Shown: positions 21,487-37,600 of the stretch, piece after piece | Position numbering within the stretch: position 1 is the first letter of the stretch | Layout: the number at the start of each line of letters is the position of its first letter | Source: Opitutaceae bacterium | Lineage (GTDB): Bacteria > Verrucomicrobiota > Verrucomicrobiia > Opitutales > Opitutaceae | Direction: 5' to 3' | DNA length: 49,478 nucleotides | Assembly (NCBI GenBank): GCA_030693515.1 | Contig: JAUYAK010000104.1 | Location: 1 to 49,478, forward strand | The notes under the pieces: generated by a model | Seen by the model: the letters and a program-made list of their open reading frames with translations, nothing else | Databases searched by the model: none | What the model was told of the DNA's origin: nothing | Program-made: the position numbers and the translations under genes

Positions 21487-22512
21487 TCAGGCTTTGGCGG
21501 AGGCAGGCAGCACTTCGCGGACGACTGCGGCGAGTTGCTTCGCCGTTGGCAGCTTGCCTCTGAATTCCGCCGGCAGCTTGGACTGAAGCTCATACTGCGC
21601 CACGCCGATGGGGTTGGTCTTCGACTTCAGCGCGAACTCCACCTCCACGTCGTCCTTCTCCGCGCAGAGGATGATGCCGATGGAGGGGCGGTCGTCCGGG
21701 GCGCGCTCCTTTTCGTTCAGGAGGTTCAGATAGAAATCCATCTTGCCCGCAAACTCCGGCTCAAACGCCACGACCTTGAGGTCGAACGCGACGAGCGCCT
21801 TGAGGAAGCGGTGGTAAAACAACAGGTCCACAAAGTATTCCTTCGCGCCGAGGGCCAGCCGGTATTGCCGGCCCACGAAGCAAAACCCGTAGCCGAGCTC
21901 CAAGATGAAATTTTGCAGCCGGCCGATGAGCCGGTCCTCCAGCTCCCGCTCCTTCATCGGCCGCGCGATGCCGAGGAATTCCAGGTTGTAGCGGCTCTTC
22001 AGCATCTCGTCGGCTTGCTCCGCGAAATGCTCTGGCAGCGCCACGGCAAAGTTGTGCGTCTTCTTCTCCGCCTTCGCGCGCTCGTAAGCCTGCGCTTTGA
22101 TCTGGTTGAGCAGCACCGCGCGGCTCCAGCCGAATTGCGCCGTGGCGCGGAGGTAGTAGAGGCGCGCGGCGGGGTCGGTGAGCTTATTGAGCATCTCCAC
22201 GTGTTGCCCCCATGGAATGGCTCCCACCAATTCTCGCACAGCTTGTGCGAGAATTTCAGGCTTCGCCGTTTCAACACCACGAGGCCCCAATTCTCTCACA
22301 GCTTGTGAGAGAAATTCAGGCGACGTATGGTCCGCGTAGAGCTGTAGCATGCGCCAGACGTTGCCGGAGGAGAACCCACGCAGGTCAGGAAATTCCGCCC
22401 GCAAATCGGCCGCGAGCCGTTCCACCACGGCGTCACCCCAGCCGAGTGTCTGCTGCTTCTCCGCGATCCCGCGCCCGATGTCCCAGTAGAGCAGAACCAA
22501 CTTGCGATTCAC
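21487..22512 (-). CDS. DUF1016 (YhcG-like) PD-(D/E)xK nuclease-family protein, 5'-truncated
   Basis: A 341-residue DUF1016 protein. An N-terminal helical domain starts at NRKLVLLYWDIGRGIAEKQ. A nuclease domain carries FVGRQYRLALGAKEYFVDLL and LVAFDLKV, the spaced Asp and DxK of a PD-(D/E)xK fold. Family members usually have about 30 more residues before the LYWDIG segment; here only a short unrelated open stretch precedes a GTG start at 22512, so the 5' end looks lost. The gene begins 42 bases after the stop of the XamI-type endonuclease, as third gene of the restriction operon. It contains two 23-bp palindromes spaced exactly 60 bp, encoding the duplicated QAVREL segments. Confidence 0.85.
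   Translation of the reverse strand: MNRKLVLLYWDIGRGIAEKQQTLGWGDAVVERLAADLRAEFPDLRGFSSGNVWRMLQLYADHTSPEFLSQAVRELGPRGVETAKPEILAQAVRELVGAIPWGQHVEMLNKLTDPAARLYYLRATAQFGWSRAVLLNQIKAQAYERAKAEKKTHNFAVALPEHFAEQADEMLKSRYNLEFLGIARPMKERELEDRLIGRLQNFILELGYGFCFVGRQYRLALGAKEYFVDLLFYHRFLKALVAFDLKVVAFEPEFAGKMDFYLNLLNEKERAPDDRPSIGIILCAEKDDVEVEFALKSKTNPIGVAQYELQSKLPAEFRGKLPTAKQLAAVVREVLPASAKA
22229..22315. repeat. Two palindromes 60 bp apart inside the DUF1016 gene
   Basis: TTCTCGCAC-AGCTT-GTGCGAGAA (22231-22253; arms extend to 11 bp) and TTCTCTCAC-AGCTT-GTGAGAGAA (22291-22313) are near-identical hairpins with the same pentaloop. Their start positions differ by exactly 60 bp, so they encode a 20-residue period (SQAVREL and AQAVREL). 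The arms differ by compensatory changes: C to T on the left and G to A on the right. Confidence 0.85.
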
Positions 22513-22554
22513 TGCGCGGCCGGTGACGCCCTTAAGCGAGGACGCGGGCCAGAA

Positions 22555-23478
22555 CTATCTCGCCTCGGTCGAGCTGATGTAGCTACCGAGCTTTGCCAGA
22601 TCGTGAGCCCAAAAAATCGTGAGCCCCGAGTCCTGCGCTTGCAGTAGATTATTCACTTTGAAAACTCCGCCGATCACAGCGGTCGGCACCACTTGGCTGG
22701 TGCCAAAAGAGCGCTGCCACTCCACCGCCTTGGCTGCGGCGTCGTTGTTGAGACGTTTGACCGAGTTGGTGGCGCTGTTCGACACCTTGCACTCAATGGG
22801 CATCAGACGCGTGTCATTGAGCCGCAGAATCACATCGGCTTTGCGGGTTCCGAGCAGACACTCGGAGCAGAACTCCCCTCGCTTTGGGCCTTCCACGATC
22901 GTCGAGATCGCGGCGCGCGGGACTTCAGTGTATTTCAATGAGACAAGGTAGTCTTTGACCAACGCTTCCTGGGTTGATTTGCCGTCGCCGCGGCGTGCAG
23001 TGGAGATGCGTTGCGCGGCGAGAAGAACTGACGACGCCAAGAGCGCGGCGGACTTCTCCTCAGGCGTCGGAGACCGCCGTTCCACAATCCAAGGAAAACG
23101 AAACGGGTCGATGGTTTGCTGGATCACGGAGAAAACTTTTCTCAACTTCTTCTTGTCGGCGCTGAGGACGCCGGGCGCGAGCGACGGCACCGCGGCGAGC
23201 ACTTTCAGGTCGTCATCCGAGATTGGCGGGCCGGACAGGTAACGCAGGGCTTCGCCAAGGTTGTCCTTGTAGGATGCTGCGAGACTGGCGTCCGAAATGC
23301 GATTGGGAGCCATCTCACCCAAGTGCTCGAACAGGGTTGTGAAGAGCTGGCGCGATTCTGTGAAGTGCTGTTTCCACGCTTCGGTGGGAGCGAGGCGCCC
23401 CGCGCGAAATGCAGCGGCGGACTTCTCGGCATCCGCGGCGAACTGCTTCGCCGTCCAAAGCGGGGGGACCTTGTTCAT
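22555..23478 (-). CDS. XamI-type type II restriction endonuclease
   Basis: A 307-residue protein matching the XamI endonuclease family. The catalytic PD-(D/E)xK motif is visible as ADVILRL (Asp215) followed by MPIECKVSNSATNSVKRLN (Glu229, Lys231). The ECKVSNS segment with downstream KRLN is characteristic of this family. XamI itself cuts GTCGAC; specificity of this homologue is inferred only. The ATG at 23478 overlaps the methyltransferase stop by four bases (23475-23478), so methylase and endonuclease are co-translated in the order that lets protection precede cutting. Confidence 0.88.
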   Translation of the reverse strand: MNKVPPLWTAKQFAADAEKSAAAFRAGRLAPTEAWKQHFTESRQLFTTLFEHLGEMAPNRISDASLAASYKDNLGEALRYLSGPPISDDDLKVLAAVPSLAPGVLSADKKKLRKVFSVIQQTIDPFRFPWIVERRSPTPEEKSAALLASSVLLAAQRISTARRGDGKSTQEALVKDYLVSLKYTEVPRAAISTIVEGPKRGEFCSECLLGTRKADVILRLNDTRLMPIECKVSNSATNSVKRLNNDAAAKAVEWQRSFGTSQVVPTAVIGGVFKVNNLLQAQDSGLTIFWAHDLAKLGSYISSTEAR

Positions 23479-24974
23479 GCCGCAGGGAAAATCTCGTCTC
23501 CGAGCAGCGGGATGACCATCGCGTCGCCCGGCTCGAATTTCACCATGCCGCCGCCGTAGGTGCGTCCGCCCGTGGCCGCGACGTTGCGATTCAGCCATGC
23601 AACGATGCGATCTTGGGTGGCGGCGCTCATGGGCTGCAGCGGTGTCAGACCATGCGCGATGTTGATGAGGCGAGCGCCGCAGGCATTACGCGCGAAGCAA
23701 GGCGGCCGGCGCCCCATGTAGCTCATCACGATCGCTGGCGGTGGTTTGAGTCGGACGCGCCACCACGGCTTGCGGTGCTGCGCCGTGTAGGAGTCGGCCG
23801 CACCAACGAGCGACGCGGCTTCGAGAAACGTGTCGACGCGCCGGCGCTCGGCGGCGGAAAGCTCATGCAAATCGGCCGGCAGGTCGATCACCCGGCGTAG
23901 ACGTGAGGAATCGTGGATGAGACCGTTTGCGTCGATAATGTCCATCGCGTCGGTCACACACGGAAAGAGATATCGCTCTGGAATCAGGCGCTCCGTGTCG
24001 GGCGTGGCGATCCAAGCTTCGTTCAAGCCTGTGACTTGACCCCGGCTCACCTGAAAAAAATCGCCCAGCATGGGGCCGAGTTCCGATGGGGACGGCATCG
24101 GGAGGCCGTGGCCTGGCCATTTGGTCAGTGAGAGCAACTGCTGGCGCTTCGCCTGAAACTGCGGTTGCACGGCGCGGAGCATCAGATCACTTACGGCGAC
24201 GTGATCGTCGCTCCCCTCGCTCCAGCCAGTAATGACCGAGGTAGTCAGCGCGTCGTCGAAAATCCGCTCGGCGGGATGCGCGCGGACCAAGCGGTCTCCG
24301 CCCATTCGGCAAAAAAGGGCGCGCATGCTTTCGCCGTAATTCGTTTCCATCCATTCGGCCGCCGTGACAAAGCACCCGATGTCACCTGGCCGCGACAGGA
24401 GGTGCGACTTGAGAAAAAAATAGAGGTGCAGCCCCGCGAGCTGGCTGCCCGGCAGGCCGAGTTGCCGCATCTGCGCCGAATACCAGGCCTTGTCTTCGGG
24501 TCGAATGTCGTGGTGACGAACGTAGGGTGGATTGCCGACAAAAGCAGTCACTCCAGCGATGCGTGGCAGATTTAACGCAATATAGTCGTCGCAAATAACC
24601 TGAACTTTCAGGCCGGCCATTTGGGCGTTGATCCGGGTCGCCTCGGCGAGGGCCGCGTCTTTCTCGACCGCAATCACTTTTGCGCGCGGCCAGCGTCGTG
24701 CGGCGGCAAGAGCATAGCGGCCAGTCCCGGCTCCGGCGTCCACGATGCGTGCGGGGCTCGTTTTTGCCGCGATTTGATCGAGCTGAAGATCGATTAACCA
24801 CTGGGGTGTAAAAGTCGCGCCTTGCGCACGGCGATCACGGGCGGAAATCGACTCGATGAAGAAGTCCCCAAGTGGATCGGAACCACGCAAAACTCCAGGC
24901 AGCACCGCCTGCACGTCTGCCATGCGTGTGCCTCGCCCCAGCTTTGCTGCTGCTTCTGTGATGCGCCGGTTCAT
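23475..24974 (-). CDS. N6-adenine DNA methyltransferase of the XamI-type system
   Basis: A 499-residue gamma-class N6-adenine methyltransferase. SAM-binding motif I is IVDAGAGTGRYAL (about 77-89), and catalytic motif IV is NPPY (148-151). A long target-recognition region follows to the C-terminus. The N-terminal SISARDRRAQGATFTPQWL is typical of such enzymes (GAxFTPxxL). It is the first gene of the operon methylase-endonuclease-DUF1016, with 77 bases between its start and the recD2 stop. Codon and base use looks less GC-rich than in neighbouring housekeeping genes, consistent with transfer. Confidence 0.88.
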   Translation of the reverse strand: MNRRITEAAAKLGRGTRMADVQAVLPGVLRGSDPLGDFFIESISARDRRAQGATFTPQWLIDLQLDQIAAKTSPARIVDAGAGTGRYALAAARRWPRAKVIAVEKDAALAEATRINAQMAGLKVQVICDDYIALNLPRIAGVTAFVGNPPYVRHHDIRPEDKAWYSAQMRQLGLPGSQLAGLHLYFFLKSHLLSRPGDIGCFVTAAEWMETNYGESMRALFCRMGGDRLVRAHPAERIFDDALTTSVITGWSEGSDDHVAVSDLMLRAVQPQFQAKRQQLLSLTKWPGHGLPMPSPSELGPMLGDFFQVSRGQVTGLNEAWIATPDTERLIPERYLFPCVTDAMDIIDANGLIHDSSRLRRVIDLPADLHELSAAERRRVDTFLEAASLVGAADSYTAQHRKPWWRVRLKPPPAIVMSYMGRRPPCFARNACGARLINIAHGLTPLQPMSAATQDRIVAWLNRNVAATGGRTYGGGMVKFEPGDAMVIPLLGDEIFPAA

Positions 24975-25051: not shown

Positions 25052-28000
25052 CTAAAGAATGTTGGCTGCGGCGATCTTCTCGCGCAGGTGCGTGCAGCGC
25101 ATTTTCGATTCCGCGTTGCGCACGGCCATCGCGTAGGCGGCGGGGTCGCCGACGAGGAAGACCTTCTTCTTGCCGCGCGTGATCGCGGTGTAGAGCAGGT
25201 TGCGCTGGAGCATCATGAAGTGCGCCTTCAGCAGCGGCACGATCACGACGGGATACTCGCTGCCCTGGCTCTTGTGGATGCTGATGGCGTAGGCGGGAGC
25301 GAGGTTGCCCAGTTCGCCGCGTTCCAGCGATTGGCGCGTGCCGTCGAAATCCACCTCGAGCGCGCCGGTCGCGGGATCGGCGGAGACGACGGTGCCGATG
25401 TCGCCGTTGAAGATGCCCTTGTCGTAATTGTTGCGCAGCTGGATGACCTTGTCGCCCACACGAAACTCGGTGCCGCCGGCGCGGATTGAGGTGGGCCGGC
25501 GCGTTCCGGCGCCGGCAGGGCTGCCGAAGGCGGGCCCGGGGTTGAGGGCGGCTTGGAGCTGCGTGTTGAGGTTGGCGACGCCGGCGACGCCTTTGTGCAT
25601 GGGCGCGAGCACCTGCACGTCGTGGATCGGGTGCGGCCATTTCAGCTTCTGCGGGATGAACTCGGTCACGAGTTGGAGGATTTTGCGCACGCAGTCCTCG
25701 GCATCGGTCGCGGCGATGAAGTTGAGATCGGCCCAGACCTGGGCGGCGGAGACCTCGGCGGCGACCGGCGGGGCCTTGGGTTCGCCGACGTTGATCGCGT
25801 GCGCGGTCGTGACGATCTGCGACTGGCCTTGCTGGCGGAAGATGACGGAGAGGCGCGTGACGGGCGACGCGTCGCCGGCCTCGCCGCTGGCCGCGATCAG
25901 ATCCTTGAGCACGTTGCCGGCGCCGACGCTCGGCAACTGATCGGTGTCGCCGACGAGGAGGACGTGGGCGCGCGAGGGGACGGCCTGGAGCAGCGCGGCG
26001 GCGAGGCGGTTGTCGAGCATCGAGGCCTCGTCCACGATGAGGAAGTCGGTGGCGAGGGGCTTGTCGTCGGTGGCGAGGAAGCCGCCGGCCGCGGCGTCGT
26101 AGCCGAGCAGCCGGTGAATCGTCGTGGCGAAGCCGCCGGTCGTCGCCGCCAAGCGCTGAGCGGCGCGACCGGTGGGCGCGGCGAGATGCACGCGGACCTG
26201 CTTGGCCTTCAGAATCTCGACGAGCGCACGGAGGATGGTGGTGTTATGCGTGACGATGTAATCATCCGTCACGTAGAGCCCGGTGGGAGAATCAATCGAG
26301 ATACAGCAGCATTCGGCTTCGCCGGCGGGCTCGACGGCCGTGAGACGGAGGCGATGGCCGAGGCGCGCCCGGGCTTTCGGGCGGCAGGTGCGGCGGATTT
26401 TTCGTTCGAGGCTGAAGAGGCTGCCAGGCGCGGGGTGTTGGAGAAAAATCGTGTGCGCGGGGAGCCCGGTGAGTTTTTTTCCGCGGTGGGTGTAGGTCGG
26501 ATGTTTGACGACACCACGGGTGGCGATGCAGCCGAGGGACCAGGCGAGGTGTTGGAAATCTTCAGCAAGGCGAGGACTGGAAGTGGTAAACGAAACGACC
26601 CCGAGTTTATCGACTGTGCCATCGGTATCGAGGAGGCCGCGGAGGAGATCGAGGCGCTGCGTGGCAGAGGCAAAGAGGTAAGCGGGGGGGATAAACTTGG
26701 CGTGGGATTTGACGGCGAGGCCGAGGATTTTCAGGGCTTCGCGGAGGGGATTGGGGAACCCCTTTCCGCGGCCGACGATGCGCCACGTAATCGTCGGGAC
26801 GCCGGCCGAGAAGACTTGCTTCAGGCGCAAGTCGAGCGATTGGAGGCGGGTGGAGAGACTGGCCACGAGGGCGGAATCGGTCGTGGTGATGAGCACGGCG
26901 TCGCTTAGGGTGCCATCGCCGATGAGTGCCCCGAGGATGTAGGGATCGACAGGAAGCGGGGCGGGTGCTTCGCCGAACGAAGCCGTGAAGAGTGGAATGC
27001 CGAGGCGATCACACTCGGTGCGGTCGAGGTCGATACGCCGGCGGATAGTGCTGAGGGGGAGGACCCGCCAGCCGCGAGAGCGGATTTTTTTCCTTTTCTC
27101 CGGGCTCCAAACGGAAGTGCGCGTCCAGACGCGCCAGAGGTGATCGTCGCAGCAGCGAGTGACGCGACCATCGGAGAAAATGACGCGGTAGGTCGGTTTC
27201 TTACCCTGCGGATGGATGCTGCGCACGGCGACGGCTTGGCCTTCGGCAGCGATGACGAGGTCGCCGGGGCGTATCTCGCCGATGGTGCGGAAACCGGTGG
27301 GGGTGAGCACGCGGGCGTCGAGAGGCTGGGCTTTCCCCGTGCCCGGTCCGCCGGTGAGGATGGAGAGCTTGTGCGCGAGGGCGCAGCGAAGCGCGGTGCG
27401 CTGGAGCGCGGCAAACTCGAAGCCGGCTTTCTGCTCCGCCCATGCGACCGCGGCCTCGATTTTGATCGGCGGGAGGCCGCTGGGCACGCGCGTCAGGCGG
27501 GCGACGGTGGCGGCGATTTTTTGCTCGGCGCGGTCGTGATGCGGGAGTTGCACGAGGCCGGAGCCGGGCAGGGGATTGGCGGTGGGAGGGGCTTTATGCC
27601 TCGACGAAAGCGGGTCAATCAGTCGGTCGGGGCGTAAAGCCCCTCCCACAGTTTCGATGGGCCAGTGGCGGACGAGGGATTTGTTTTCCACGAGGGCCGC
27701 GATGCGGGCTTCGAGGAAGCGCGAGTCGGTCTCGAGCAGGCCGGCGGAGTGGGTGACGAGATCGGCCTCGCGGTAGGCGGTGTGGCCGTCCTCCTGCAGG
27801 GTCTCGAGCGCGTAGATGAGGCCGGCGTCGAGGCGCGGCGGGGCGTCGTTGGCGAAGCCGAGGTTGATGGCGATGCGGTCGGCGGTCTTGAAGCCGATGC
27901 CGTCGATCTCGCGGGCGGCGCGGTAGGGTTCGGTGGTGAGGATGGTCTTCGCGCCGGGGCCGAAGTGCTTCACGAGCTTGAGGCACTGCGAGGGCGTGAC

Positions 28001-28522
28001 GCCGTAGGTCTGGAGGAAGATGTAGAGCTCGCGCTCCGTGCGCTTGGCGTCCCAAGCCTGCTTGATCGCGGTGGCGCGTTTTTTGCCGATGCCCTCGACA
28101 TCGCGTAGGCGGCCGGACTCTTCGCTGAGCACGCGGAAGGTGTCGGTGCCGAAGGCATCGACGATCTTGTTGGCGTAAACCTTGCCGATGCCGGGCACGA
28201 GGCCGCTGCCGAGGTATTTGCGGATGCCGTAAACCGAGGCGGGCAGCTCGCTCTTGAACGCCGAGATTTTGAACTGCGCGCCGTGCTGGGCGTGGCGCGT
28301 CCATTCGCCGGTGAGGTGCAGCGTCTCGCCGCACTCGACGCTCGGCAGCGCGCCGACGATGGTGACGAGCTCGGCGCGGGCCTTGGCGTCGGCGCGCGGC
28401 GCGGGCGGGAGGTCGGGGCGGAACTCCGCGATGGTGTAGTGGTTCTCCTCGTTGAGAAAAATGATGCGCTCGAGCACGCCGGTGAGCGTGGCGGAGGCAG
28501 AGGAGGCGGCGGGCGGAGGCAC
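25052..28522 (-). CDS. recD2: RecD2-type ATP-dependent DNA helicase with intein in the P-loop
   Basis: A 1156-residue precursor from GTG at 28522; TTG at 28606 is an alternative but would abut the divergent gene's ATG. The mature helicase would be 793 residues. The N-terminal region has the RecD2 OB/helix-hairpin-helix part (GLVPGIGKVYANKI, VEGIGKKRA, IDGIGFKTADRI). The helicase core has LTGGPGTGK, interrupted by an intein directly after Lys, then TTILRALVEIL, APTGRAAQRL, FLIVDEASMLD, LLVGDTDQLPSVGAGNVL and AYAISIHKSQGSEYPVV. RecD2 is a 5'-3' SF1B helicase acting in DNA repair without RecBC. A 68-bp palindromic repeat also lies in frame in the linker before the core. Without splicing the P-loop would be broken. 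Confidence 0.95.
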   Translation of the reverse strand: MPPPAASSASATLTGVLERIIFLNEENHYTIAEFRPDLPPAPRADAKARAELVTIVGALPSVECGETLHLTGEWTRHAQHGAQFKISAFKSELPASVYGIRKYLGSGLVPGIGKVYANKIVDAFGTDTFRVLSEESGRLRDVEGIGKKRATAIKQAWDAKRTERELYIFLQTYGVTPSQCLKLVKHFGPGAKTILTTEPYRAAREIDGIGFKTADRIAINLGFANDAPPRLDAGLIYALETLQEDGHTAYREADLVTHSAGLLETDSRFLEARIAALVENKSLVRHWPIETVGGALRPDRLIDPLSSRHKAPPTANPLPGSGLVQLPHHDRAEQKIAATVARLTRVPSGLPPIKIEAAVAWAEQKAGFEFAALQRTALRCALAHKLSILTGGPGTGKAQPLDARVLTPTGFRTIGEIRPGDLVIAAEGQAVAVRSIHPQGKKPTYRVIFSDGRVTRCCDDHLWRVWTRTSVWSPEKRKKIRSRGWRVLPLSTIRRRIDLDRTECDRLGIPLFTASFGEAPAPLPVDPYILGALIGDGTLSDAVLITTTDSALVASLSTRLQSLDLRLKQVFSAGVPTITWRIVGRGKGFPNPLREALKILGLAVKSHAKFIPPAYLFASATQRLDLLRGLLDTDGTVDKLGVVSFTTSSPRLAEDFQHLAWSLGCIATRGVVKHPTYTHRGKKLTGLPAHTIFLQHPAPGSLFSLERKIRRTCRPKARARLGHRLRLTAVEPAGEAECCCISIDSPTGLYVTDDYIVTHNTTILRALVEILKAKQVRVHLAAPTGRAAQRLAATTGGFATTIHRLLGYDAAAGGFLATDDKPLATDFLIVDEASMLDNRLAAALLQAVPSRAHVLLVGDTDQLPSVGAGNVLKDLIAASGEAGDASPVTRLSVIFRQQGQSQIVTTAHAINVGEPKAPPVAAEVSAAQVWADLNFIAATDAEDCVRKILQLVTEFIPQKLKWPHPIHDVQVLAPMHKGVAGVANLNTQLQAALNPGPAFGSPAGAGTRRPTSIRAGGTEFRVGDKVIQLRNNYDKGIFNGDIGTVVSADPATGALEVDFDGTRQSLERGELGNLAPAYAISIHKSQGSEYPVVIVPLLKAHFMMLQRNLLYTAITRGKKKVFLVGDPAAYAMAVRNAESKMRCTHLREKIAAANIL
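26243..27331 (-). mobile_element. Intein with LAGLIDADG endonuclease, class 3 signatures
   Basis: A 363-residue insertion sits between GGPGTGK and TT of the recD2 Walker A motif. It starts with Ala, not Cys (AQPLDARVLTPTGF, then RTIGEIRPGDLV, block A). Block B shows RVTRCCDDHLWRVW, with Trp just after the His region. Two LAGLIDADG motifs, YILGALIGDGT (intein residues 131-141) and DLLRGLLDTDGT (228-239), mark a DOD homing endonuclease. The C-terminal blocks are ECCCISIDSP and DDYIVTHN, with Thr before the penultimate His and +1 Thr. Absence of an N-terminal nucleophile plus Trp (block B), Cys (block F) and Thr (block G) fits class 3 inteins. All key splicing residues look intact. Confidence 0.93.
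27582..27649. repeat. Palindromic repeat inserted in frame in recD2
   Basis: GTGGGAGGGGCTTTA (27582-27596) and TAAAGCCCCTCCCAC (27635-27649) are perfect 15-bp inverted complements. The stem continues imperfectly inward (TGCCTCGAC against GTCGGGGCG). The 68-bp element encodes about 22 extra residues (GGALRPDRLIDPL, then SSRHKAPPT) in the variable linker before the helicase core. The GTGGGAGGGGCTTTA arm is of the kind seen in dispersed palindromic repeats of Opitutaceae-like genomes (recalled, not searched). Confidence 0.85.
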
Positions 28523-28605
28523 GGGGACGCCGAGGTGAAACGGCTTTGGGCCGCGATGCAAACCGGTGTTGCCCGCTTCGCCGCGGGCGCGCCAGGCTCC
28601 GCGCA

Positions 28606-29067
28606 ATGGATCCTGCGGTTTCCAATTCCTTCCTCCCGGTCATTCAGCTCGCGATCACGCCGGTGATTCTGATCTCGGGCGTGGGTGCGCTCATGCTCAC
28701 CCTGACCAACCGCATGGGCCGCATCGTCGATCGCACGCGGGGACTGGCGGAAAAGGTGCGGACGGCGGGCGGTGCCGACCGCGTGCATTTTGAGACTCAG
28801 CTCAACATCCTCTGGCGGCGCGCTAAGCTGATCCGCGTCGCCGTCACGCTGGCCGGCCTGAGCATGCTGCTCTCCTGCCTGCTGGTGATGGCGATCTTCG
28901 TGGATGCGGCGGCGGCGCGGAATTTCGCGGCGCCGCTGGTGGTGATTTTCCTCGGCAGCGTGGTGTGCCTCTTCGCGGCGCTGGTGGCTTTCCTGCGCGA
29001 CGTGTGGATGTCGCTCTGGGCGCTGCGGCTCGAGGTCGAGCGGGCGCGGGTGAAGGTCGAGGACTAG
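28606..29067 (+). CDS. DUF2721 membrane protein
   Basis: A 153-residue membrane protein from ATG at 28606 (MDPAVSNSFLPVIQ). The first hydrophobic helix (LAITPVILISGVGALMLTL) is followed by a conserved cytoplasmic stretch, NRMGRIVDRTR, and RRAKLIRVAV. Two further helices (LAGLSMLLSCLLVMAIFVD and LVVIFLGSVVCLFAALVAF) precede a charged C-terminus. NRxxRIVDR between helix 1 and a long amphipathic segment is typical of DUF2721, whose function is unknown. It is divergent from recD2 and converges with the HAD gene, overlapping it by four bases. Confidence 0.85.
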   Translation: MDPAVSNSFLPVIQLAITPVILISGVGALMLTLTNRMGRIVDRTRGLAEKVRTAGGADRVHFETQLNILWRRAKLIRVAVTLAGLSMLLSCLLVMAIFVDAAAARNFAAPLVVIFLGSVVCLFAALVAFLRDVWMSLWALRLEVERARVKVED

Positions 29068-33612: not shown

Positions 33613-34437
33613 TCACGCCGCGGGGCGATAGACAACGAGGAGTTCACGGGCCTGGGTGCGGTTGGCGCCGTGGCAGCTGATCTGGCGGCGCACGAGCAAT
33701 TCGTGGCATTCATCGGCGCCGGCGTAGAGCGCCCGCGTCTCGGGCGTGTCGTGGTTGGAGAGTGCTACGATCGCACCTCTTTGCCGGGCCGCATGGCAGC
33801 ACGCCGCGAGGTCGCTCTGCTCCTGCGGACCGAAGGCCGTGCGCGCATAGGCGGTGAAATTGGCCGTCGCGCTCGCCGGCACATAGGGTGGATCGCAATA
33901 GACAAAATCGCCCGCGCCCGCCTGCGCGAGCACAGCGCGGAAATCCGCATGCAGGAGTGTGCAGCGTTGGAGCAGCACGTGGAACGTGAGCATCTCGGCG
34001 CGCGGGAAGTAGGGCGCGGCGTAGCGGCCGAACGGGACGTTGAACCCGCCGCGGGCATTGTAGCGGCAGAGCCCGTTGTAACCGTGCCGGTTCAGGTAAA
34101 CGAAAAGCGACGCGCGGCGCGCGGGATCGGTGGTAGCGTTGAACTCCTCGCGCCGCTGGTAGTAAACGGCGGCGGAGTTGGCCTCGGCGGAGAAAAGGTC
34201 GTGGCACTCCGCGATGAAGGCCTCGGGCGCGTCTCGCAGCCGCTGATAGACCGCGATCAGGTCGGCATTCGTGTCAGCGAGCAGGCTGGTCGGCAGACCG
34301 AGGTTCAGGGCCACTGCGCCGCTGCCGACAAATGGCTCGACGAGGCGGGTCGCGGTCAAGGGCACGACTGCACCGATGGCCGGGACCAGCTTGGTCTTCC
34401 CGCCCGCCCACTTCAGGAATGGTCGTTGCAGCTCCAC
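33613..34437 (-). CDS. dam: Dam-type DNA adenine methylase (orphan)
   Basis: A 274-residue alpha-class N6-adenine methyltransferase of the Dam family. Motif I region FLKWAGGKTKLVPAI is at the N-terminus (10-14, WAGGK), the VEPFVGSGAVALNL segment follows, and catalytic DPPY is at 182-185. The start is GTG at 34437, which leaves the usual six or so residues before FLKWAGGK; the open frame extends much further upstream but only as antisense to the next gene. No restriction partner adjoins it, so it is an orphan. Dam enzymes of this group methylate GATC; specificity here is inferred. Confidence 0.88.
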   Translation of the reverse strand: MELQRPFLKWAGGKTKLVPAIGAVVPLTATRLVEPFVGSGAVALNLGLPTSLLADTNADLIAVYQRLRDAPEAFIAECHDLFSAEANSAAVYYQRREEFNATTDPARRASLFVYLNRHGYNGLCRYNARGGFNVPFGRYAAPYFPRAEMLTFHVLLQRCTLLHADFRAVLAQAGAGDFVYCDPPYVPASATANFTAYARTAFGPQEQSDLAACCHAARQRGAIVALSNHDTPETRALYAGADECHELLVRRQISCHGANRTQARELLVVYRPAA

Positions 34438-34658
34438 GTGGGCGGACCCTACGTCGTGCGATCGATCGGTCAATCTGAGACAGAAAAAATGGGTGGTCGG
34501 ATGCCCTCGCAGGAAGGCCTGCATTTTTCCTGCCTGTTTGCGTCCGAAGTCCTGGGCTTGGCGATTTCCTCGGAGCGGGCTCTGCCCGCTTTCCTGGATT
34601 TGTTCGGGGTGCGAATTTCCGGACGCGAAGCCGGGCCGCCTATGGGCTGCTTCGGTGA
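34438..34658. other. Intergenic region with hairpins
   Basis: This 221-bp gap lies between the glycosyltransferase-like gene and dam, both on the minus strand. It contains a 7-bp hairpin, AGCGGGC-TCT-GCCCGCT (34574-34590). It also holds GCAGG-AAGG-CCTGC followed by ATTTTT (34509-34528), which has terminator shape only on the + strand, where no gene ends. I see no gene. The dam promoter is presumably here. Confidence 0.5.
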
Positions 34659-37600
34659 TTAGTTCACGCCCGACCGGTGCGCGGCTTGCCGCTGCCAGAT
34701 GCTCGCCCCGTCGCGCCACGGCGCCGCGACCCTGCGCCATTCCCCGGCCAGGCCCCAAGCCCGGGCAGGAGGCGCCGCGCCGCCCGGCCCGGGCGATTCG
34801 CTGTTGTAGATGATGGCGAAGACCGGTCGTCCGCTGCGCTCGATCGGTGCGAGCAGACTTTCGGTGAGCATGCCCGGCTGGGCGAAATCGACGCGGATGC
34901 AGGTGAGGTCCGTGTAATACATCACCGAGCCAGCGGCCAGATTGGCCAGGACGATTGCGTTGGCGGGAGCGTGCGTGCGAAGCCACTGAGCGACCACCGC
35001 GTGCTCCCGGTTTGCGTGGAGCCAGAAGAGCACGCGCTCCTTGAAACTGCCGGTGACAAGCGAACCCAACAGACCCACGACCAAGACGGTGGATGCGGCC
35101 ACCGAGCGGAACCCGCCGCCGGCCTCGAAAAGGCGCAATCGGAGGTGCGGCAGCAGGTGCTGCAAAGCGAGCAGGCCCATGATGACGAAGGCCGGAGCCG
35201 CAGGCAGGACGAAACGCATGCCGCACCAATGGTCCCAGGTGCACCAATAGAAGGCATAAAAGGTTAGAAACGGGACGACCCAAGCCAGCAGGATCAGGCG
35301 CGTGCGCCCGGGAACCCCGCGCAGAAAAAACACTGCCGGGCCGATGCAGACCACCGGGGTGAAAAGCGCGGGCAGCCACTGTGCGTAGGACCGAGCGGTC
35401 AGGAGGAAAAATTCCCGGCCAATCATCGTCCGGAGGTCTCCGTAGCCACTGGCCCCGATGCTCCCGTAGAGCGTGTGGTTGAGCCAGGCGAGCCAGAGTG
35501 CAAACGGCAGGCCGCCGCCGAGCCAAAGCGCCAGTGCGCGCCACCGGCCAGCCAGGCAGATGACGATCGGAAGCACACAGAAAATATTGGTCGGACGGAT
35601 CAGCACGGCGACCGCCGTGGCGACGCCAGCGAGGAAGGCCCGCCGCGGGTGGGCCTCACACGTCCACGCCAGATAGATCGCCGCGGTTACCCAGACCAGG
35701 GCGGGCACATCGCTCATCGGCTGGAGCGCGTGGAAGACATAGACGGGACTCAGTCCGACGATGCCGGCGGCGAGCCAAGCCCAGCCGTCAGCGAGCCCTG
35801 CGACGCGGGCCATGCGCTGAACGAGCACGACCCCCGCAATCAAATGCAGCCACAGACAGGCGCCGACCGCCCCATCGAGCGGCATGACCTGCGCCAGAGC
35901 TGCAACCAACAGCGGAAATCCGATCGGGTAGTTCGGCGCCATTCGGCCGTCCGCCGTGGGGCGAAACGTCCCCGGCACATAGGGCGCGACGTCGGACGCG
36001 TTGGTGACTGTGGTCAGCGGCGCGTGAGGTGTCGCCGTGATTTTCCCGCTGGCCAGAAGCTTCGCCGTATTGAGATAGCCGCCGGAGTCGTTCGGTCCGG
36101 CGGTCGTGTCGAGGTGGCCGCCCAAGAAAACGGCATAGGCCGCGAGGGCCAGCCACGGCACCAGCTTCATGCTGCCGGCCGGGACGCGTGGGAACGTGAT
36201 GGATGCGAGGCCGGTCGGTCGCGCACGAAACGCGGTCCGGGCGGTGAGAACGGAAGCGATGAATCCACCGGCGAGAAGCCACGACCAGAGCGCGAGAATT
36301 TTTCCGACGAACCAGGAGATCCGTCCGAGCTCCACGGGTGCGGTGAAGGCGATCCATGAAGCCGCGTCGCTGTCGTGGACCACAACCCGAAAGGTATCCG
36401 ATGGTGCGCTATAGTGGACTCGCCGCCACCGGGTCGGTGAACTGAAAGGGTCGCTCCAAGCCTCGGCTAGGCTGCCGCGGTGATCGCGGAGCGTCACCGA
36501 AACGCGGGGTGGGTGAAATTCGCCCATGATGCGGAACAGCAGAAGGGGGAAACTCGTCCGGAGTGGGCGACTGATGTAATCGGCCGTGAAGGCTGCGCTG
36601 TCCGCGGTCCCGGTGCCGAAGAGCGGCAGTTGTTCGCGGCCAGAAATCGCGACCAAGGCGCCGGGGACAAATTCAGCCGTGGCGTCTGGCGATTCCCATT
36701 CGATTCTCAGCGGCGGCCGGATCGAGGCCGGCAGGATCCGTTCGATGAGCGGATCGCGGAGGAGCCGCAGGGCTTCGTCGAGATGTGCGCGGGCCCAGCC
36801 GTGGCGCGCCGTCAACTCGGAGCTGTCGCTCTGGCGGAGGGCGAGTTGCAGGGCGGATGCGCCCGCGGCGTCCGGCACGGGGAACAATCCGACGCGATCG
36901 CGATGCGACAGCGGTGAGAGGAGCGCGTGGGCGACCAGTATCACCCAAAGTGCCGCCCCGGCGAGATACCGGGAATCCTGCGCGACTGCGCCGCTGACGA
37001 GCAGGCAGAGACAGGCGGCGTTGACGATGACGCCCGTCGCAAACACGGCCGGCGCCGCGCCGCCGCCCGTTGCGGCAGAGACGACAGCCATCAATCCGGC
37101 CCAGAGCGCGAGCAGCGGCAGCATGGAGCCAAGGCCGACTGTGGCGGGGCGCCGAAGCATCCAGCGAAAAACACAAATCACGGCCGGCGCCCAGAGCACG
37201 AAGCACCACCCCGCATGGGAAAATGGCCACGCGACCGGTCGTGCGTCCGCCATGGTCCACGATGCCCAGCCGGCCGTGCCGGCACGCAGCGCCACCCACG
37301 CAATCCCCATGACGGCAAGGGCGGCATGGGCCGCGGATATTCGAAATTGAGCCCGCGTGGATCCCGCGTCGCGGCGCGTCTCAACCGCGGACCACAGCGC
37401 GAGGGCGAGGGCGGGTGCGATTCCGGCCGACGCGTTCAGGACGTTGAGCAGCCCGCAGGCAAAGCCGGCTACAACGTGTGACGGGCGGGCGCGGGCCGAT
37501 CCGGCAAGCGCAAGGTGCATGAGCGACAGCACCACCGTGATGGCCGAGGTGTCGCTGCCGGTGACCGGCCCGAGGAGCAAGAAGGCCGGGCTGAGGAGCA

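Follow-up and report, generated by a model that had tools for sequence, protein, structure and literature searches.

Introduction

Class 3 inteins are defined by the lack of a nucleophile at residue 1 and by a Trp-Cys-Thr set distributed over blocks B, F and G, and their splicing reaction is begun by the block F Cys, as set out in the available portions of PMC5050341 and PMC7664689. The closest described system is DnaBi1, the P-loop intein of the Mycobacterium smegmatis helicase DnaB (structure 6bs8). In the sections available, PMC6195587 reports for DnaBi1 the Trp-Cys-Thr residues without a nucleophile at residue 1, an insertion in the helicase P-loop with a Mg-coordinating P-loop residue as the +1 residue, and a catalytic Cys that is reversibly oxidised with Cys48 as its redox partner. 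The intein analysed here shares the class 3 residues and the P-loop position. However, DnaBi1 is described in the same source as a mini-intein without endonuclease located in DnaB, whereas the present intein is full-length and located in RecD2, a helicase with a role in replication and repair (PMC12143592, available part). Block B also differs, with DxxH in DnaBi1 (PMC6195587, as far as available) and CxxH in the RecD2 intein. Class 3 inteins in P-loop ATPases are well known as a kind of element, but RecD2 was not met as a host in the literature searched: no description of a RecD2 intein was found in the open-access full texts covered. The locus was found in a stretch of 49,478 nucleotides from an Opitutaceae bacterium, here called the window, and the intein, its host gene and its relatives were compared by sequence searches, tree reconstruction and structure prediction.

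Data sets and phylogenetic analyses

Relatives of the intein were collected by alignment-based scans. In genome contigs 295 matches to the pattern and 248 relatives were obtained, and the best 80 of these relatives (78 loci) were kept; from viral contigs the best 80 of 238 relatives were kept. When viral contigs were scanned with a single sequence, 4 pattern matches were obtained but no relative. A quick tree of class 3 inteins was built from 132 rows (160 before thinning), with DnaB and PhoH labels derived from clustering of the flanks; Pfam agreed with the label for 7/7 DnaB and 4/4 PhoH rows checked. The RecD2 tree contained 88 rows, 17 of them filled and 71 empty, the empty rows being partly picked from genera with positives. 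Excluded from this tree were repeats of genes (L001, L003, L204, L205, L209, L213, L219, L222, L226, L228), furthermore L002, L039 (overlapping with L266) and L040-L042, and loci that did not fit the P-loop pattern (L224, L229, L233, L236, L267 and L269, the latter with 81 bases). In the sampling of the class (384 genomes) and the phylum (387 genomes) the partial matches G639:C105 and G613:C43 were left out of inspection. Because the Biopython code for dS is marked experimental, differing same-residue codons and fourfold sites were also counted. Neighbouring frames with dN above or near dS were set aside as probably not being genes in that frame.

The insertion in RecD2 and its splicing residues

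The exteins of the window protein were assigned to RecD2 by TIGR01448 (741.7 bits at a cut-off of 500) and by the Pfam domains HHH_RecD2 (PF14490), OB_YrrC (PF23139), SH3_13 and UvrD_C_2, so that the family score as well as the HHH and OB domains identify the host. The reading frame at the locus is open without a stop across 1195 codons; the coordinates of its parts are given in Table 1.

The first-pass annotation had described a 363-residue insertion precisely at the boundary of GGPGTGK and TT in Walker A, beginning with Ala instead of Cys or Ser, and had read a class 3 signature from a Trp after the block B His, a Cys at the block F position and a Thr before the terminal His-Asn. Each of these features was recovered. 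The intein lies exactly in-frame at this point of the reverse strand, and the junction is confirmed by the intein-free relatives, as in the 71 empty rows GGPGTGK runs straight into TT (64 rows) or TS (7 rows), while the insert stands before TT in every filled row. The alignment of the 17 copies comprises 363 columns with zero gaps; A1, H64, W66, C343, T361, H362 and N363 are invariant in it, and Asn363 is followed by Thr as the +1 residue in all copies. The assignment of the block F Cys could be refined to the third Cys of ECCCIS (C343), the second (C342) being variable with Val in 14, Cys in two and Ala in one of the 17. C343 is kept in 132/132 rows of the wider class 3 set, the RecD2 copies included. 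The complete H-W-C-T-N set is present in 131/132 rows; however, CCx[DE]HLW was itself part of the scan patterns, which makes the conservation of H and W, as that of C60 and C61, circular in part.

When the genome of the window, which comprises 6.65 Mb on 130 contigs, was searched with the precursor protein, no second RecD2 was revealed, since the only other match, L002 (E 1.2e-6), was judged from its translation to be a relaxase-like protein without this intein. As the insert separates the Lys of Walker A from its Thr and the genome yielded no further RecD2, we infer from the sequence, in line with the earlier annotation, that RecD2 would be functional only once spliced.

Table 1. Positions of the RecD2 intein, its host gene and the second-site inteins; plain ranges refer to the window, ranges with a prefix to the locus named.
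Feature	Position	Strand	Remark
RecD2 precursor frame (exteins and intein)	25052..28606	-	1184 aa; start codon uncertain
N-extein, with Walker A ...GGPGTGK at its end	27332..28606	-	
C-extein, +1 Thr (the Walker A Thr) through stop codon	25052..26242	-	
Class 3 intein with LAGLIDADG endonuclease domain	26243..27331	-	363 aa; exact codons A..N
First intein residue, Ala in place of a Cys/Ser nucleophile	27329..27331	-	Ala in 17/17
Block B His64-Leu65-Trp66 (class 3 H and W)	27134..27142	-	invariant 17/17
First LAGLIDADG motif LGALIGDGT with Asp139	26909..26935	-	Asp139 in 17/17
Second LAGLIDADG motif LLRGLLDTDG with Asp237	26618..26647	-	Asp237 in 16/17
Block F Cys343, predicted initiating nucleophile	26303..26305	-	17/17
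Block G Thr361-His362-Asn363	26243..26251	-	invariant 17/17
Second-site inteins	L267:700-2082, L266:339-1721, L042:1081-2463		

Similarity to solved inteins and predicted fold

A phmmer search with the insert returned the class 3 DnaB inteins 6rix, 6riy and 6bs8 and also chains of the gp41-1 intein. In the match to 6rix the Trp is paired with the Trp of the insert, whereas the Cys and the Thr of 6rix are aligned with C343 and T361 in a second domain that is weak (1.5 bits). The structure predicted by AlphaFold from the 17-row alignment reached a mean pLDDT of 88.8 in the best model and of 76.9-83.0 in the other four. When the best model was submitted to Foldseek, the top match was PI-SceI (1ef0; E 3.5e-17, query TM 0.68). 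The class 3 chain 6bs8_B was matched with a target TM of 0.85, and the remaining 6bs8 chains and those of 6rix/6riy with a target TM of only 0.48-0.51. On the basis of the predicted model the insert has a HINT fold, which agrees with the class 3 signature.

Endonuclease domain

The intein of the window matches LAGLIDADG_3 (PF14528) with 38.7 bits at a cut-off of 22.5. It carries both motifs of a LAGLIDADG homing endonuclease, each with its acidic residue (D139 and D237), as had been claimed in the earlier annotation. In the intein L026 (genome G051) a Gly is found at residue 237 instead of the second catalytic Asp and the splicing residues are intact; judged from these residues this copy is probably a natural endonuclease-dead variant.

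Occurrence in Opitutaceae

Full-length copies were detected in 17 of the 252 Opitutaceae genomes, all with 363 aa, all in RecD2 and all at the same point, and the other 16 are 58-96% identical to the window intein. Within the genus of the window the intein is shared by G018 alone. The C-extein of RecD2 was found in 231/252 genomes of the family (E 1e-60) and in 165/165 of its high-quality genomes, 10 of which contain the intein. No RecD2 intein outside the family was seen among the matches inspected in the sampled genomes of the class and the phylum. Among these samples, the flanks of L201 and L287-L293 were judged by eye not to be RecD2-like, and in L202 and L203 the match was confined to intein residues 3-64. 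The earlier statement that inteins in RecD2 are uncommon fits the findings outside this one family, as only one further RecD2 host, from Planctomycetota, was found among the 78 best genome loci.

Relatives in other hosts

Among the best 80 of the 248 genome relatives, 15 reside in Opitutaceae RecD2 and one (L095) in the Planctomycetota RecD2; the other inspected loci of this set have DnaB, PhoH, SNF2-type proteins and other ATPases as hosts. Counting the full-length matches among the kept loci, the insert directly follows GK in 68/76 genome loci and 60/77 viral loci. No close copy was seen in phage or plasmid records, since all 533 phage and 38 plasmid records with a match were below 60% identity.

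In the 132-row tree the 17 RecD2 inteins form one clade (support 100), the sister of which consists of 32 of the 35 DnaB P-loop inteins (SH-aLRT 99). These DnaB inteins (rows L058-L109, mostly Pseudomonadota) are class 3 inteins with LAGLIDADG domain that resemble the RecD2 intein in their AQPLDA...VTHN ends and their site between GK and T, but they have another host gene, and their best segment shares 36-45% identity with the intein of the window. Inteins of jumbo phages (Proteus phage 10, LucasX and phiLBG22) have the same architecture and a GK-type site and, with 40-42% identity, are the best among the phage matches listed; the host is annotated as a helicase in two of the records and the third record is unannotated. 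However, they branch outside the group of RecD2 and DnaB inteins.

The Planctomycetota locus (L095:612-4319) is RecD2 according to Pfam, with the intein in the P-loop between GK and T and with A1, H, W, C, T, H and N all present. Its intein is found on a different branch, and a single clade with the 17 was rejected in a 43-row tree (AU p 3e-4). Since L095 branches elsewhere and a joint clade is rejected, Walker A of RecD2 was probably invaded by class 3 inteins at least twice, independently at the same codon position.

Several further architectures were recorded. Class 3 P-loop inteins also occur in other RecD-like helicases of SF1 that lack the HHH domain of RecD2, in Paracoccus (L106:3833-5998) and in a viral contig (L145:3776-6337). 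A protein of 1751 aa from Verrucomicrobiota (L103:2651-7903) combines methyltransferase and helicase domains with a class 3 intein and has an additional Hint domain at residues 985-1029, and the DnaB frame L081:3263-7012 holds a class 3 P-loop intein together with a second, ordinary splicing-domain intein (PF14890).

Histories of intein and host

In the tree of 88 RecD2 exteins, with its empty rows selected in part from genera with positives, the distribution of the 17 positives required 15 changes, a number equally low in 174/500 shuffles. Filled and empty alleles may be close to each other, as for the filled L027 and the empty L210 (dN 0.011 and 0.014, dS 0.15 and 0.23 for the two exteins). 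The trees of the 17 inteins and of their exteins are in conflict: with the intein data two extein clades were rejected by AU tests (p 1.8e-6 and 1.3e-5), and with the extein data three intein clades were rejected (p 2.0e-8, 5.8e-6 and 8.7e-25), these p-values being optimistic because the tested clades were picked after viewing the trees. Intein and extein distances are nevertheless correlated (Mantel r 0.62, with 0/10000 permutations as high), so vertical descent also contributes.

The comparison of the window with G018, which holds the closest other copy of the intein, gave a lower silent divergence for the intein than for its host. Differing same-residue codons amounted to 17/344 in the intein and 110/705 in the exteins (Fisher p 1.8e-7), and dS was 0.062 and 0.26-0.27, respectively; at fourfold sites only the contrast was weaker (14/223 and 55/426, p 0.010). 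Neighbouring genes with dN well below dS showed dS values of 0.32-0.85. Base composition differs as well, as GC3 in the window is 0.75 for the intein and 0.87 and 0.91 for the exteins. No clear signal of co-conversion of the flanks was seen between the window and G018, the 50 bases on each side being 94% identical. The pattern varies among pairs: L024/L025 and L036/L038 behave in the opposite way to the window pair, the silent positions of the intein being more diverged than those of the exteins, and L031/L034 displays no contrast between intein and exteins at silent positions. Contrasts in both directions are consistent with separate histories of intein and host. Given its scattered presence, the conflict between intein and host trees and the low divergence at silent positions in the pair of window and G018, the intein seems to have been transferred among related species. 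The same three observations lend indirect support to the suggestion of the earlier annotation that homing may still be active.

Proposed mechanism and alternative explanations

Walker A of RecD2 very likely harbours a class 3 intein of full length that is probably active and behaves as a mobile passenger of its host within the family Opitutaceae, with its chemistry and DNA cutting predicted from the conserved residues. After translation, Cys343, which with His64 and Thr361 would form a triad-like centre next to Trp66, would attack the bond between Lys(-1) and Ala1, and the N-extein would then be transferred to the +1 Thr. Cyclisation of Asn363 would follow and the ligated Walker A GGPGTGKTT would be restored. 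Homing would begin with cleavage, by the LAGLIDADG domain, of recD2 alleles that lack the intein, at the junction of GK and TT or close to it, whereupon repair would copy the intein in.

If the boundary had been set wrongly, the insert could be a class 1 or class 2 intein in which residue 1 or the +1 residue initiates and the Trp-Cys-Thr residues are incidental, and class 2 inteins likewise have no Cys or Ser at residue 1 (PMC7664689, available part). Against this stands the junction, which is set at GGPGTGK and T by the 71 empty rows and thereby fixes a residue 1 that is Ala in every copy and not the Cys or Ser of class 1; the WCT motif is present, contrary to class 2, its W66, C343 and T361 are all invariant, and C343 persists in a set spanning many hosts. 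Such a misassignment is therefore considered extremely improbable. A decayed, non-splicing intein in a strain with a RecD2 pseudogene is regarded as very improbable: a stop does occur inside the matched C-extein stretch of two intein-free relatives (G117 and G056), but in the window the frame is open, every splicing residue is kept, dN/dS against G018 amounts to 0.26 in the intein and to 0.16-0.17 in the exteins, and no other RecD2 was found in the genome.

Mostly vertical descent with many independent losses, in place of horizontal spread, would fit the single clade of the 17 copies and the correlation of intein and extein distances. It is judged improbable, since by AU tests extein clades are rejected on intein data and intein clades on extein data (unless recombination of exteins explains this rejection), the intein of the window and G018 is low in silent divergence, and the L028 intein clusters with those of L036/L038, contrary to the L028 extein.

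Second insertion site in RecD2

A second site in RecD2, between SIHK and SQGSEYP, is occupied in 3 of the 252 family genomes (G160, G254 and G091) by an insert of 461 aa that starts with Cys1 and ends with HN before Ser, and that from these ends looks like a class 1 intein. Both inteins are present in G091, the P-loop is empty in G254, and in G160 the contig starts beyond the P-loop. A parallel is DnaB of M. smegmatis, for which a class 3 P-loop intein together with a class 1 intein is described in the available part of PMC6195587. Apart from RecD2, an intein was seen in a ribonucleotide reductase-like frame (L041, genome G199), and the family has several more frames, each about 1500 codons long, in which only part of the second-site intein is matched.

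Possible redox response and implications

By analogy with the reversible oxidation of DnaBi1, the intein could be a redox gate, in which oxidation of Cys343 would block splicing and hold RecD2 back under oxidative stress, with release afterwards; we regard this as a rather unlikely, speculative extension. The disulfide partner of Cys343 may then be, for example, C341, C60 or C61. The parallel would involve a different partner Cys and a repair helicase, not a replicative one: in place of the Cys48 named in the available part of PMC6195587, the RecD2 intein has C60, C61 and C341, and the 6rix Cys in the Cys48 stretch, its equivalence to Cys48 being assumed, pairs with Thr47 of the RecD2 intein. 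C60, C61 and C341 are invariant in 17/17 RecD2 inteins, which is a hint only because many other columns are also invariant in the 17. C341 occurs in all 17 members of the RecD2 clade, in 11/35 DnaB rows and in 28/80 others; C60 and C61 are common in the wider relatives too, in part since they were required by the scan patterns.

With RecD2, a further P-loop ATPase is added to the hosts of class 3 inteins. The family moreover offers a compact natural series, with 17 full-length copies of equal length, closely related genes that lack the intein, indications of lateral movement, what were probably two separate class 3 invasions of one codon position, and a second site of class 1 type, by which the dynamics of homing and the role of class 3 splicing as a stress switch of a repair helicase become directly testable.

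Genes in the neighbourhood of RecD2

Downstream of RecD2 on the same strand (window positions 21487-24974) an Eco57I-type methylase and a XamI-type restriction endonuclease are encoded, followed by a YhcG/DUF1016 nuclease. A D12-class N6-adenine methyltransferase (PF02086) is located at positions 33613-35544 of the window.
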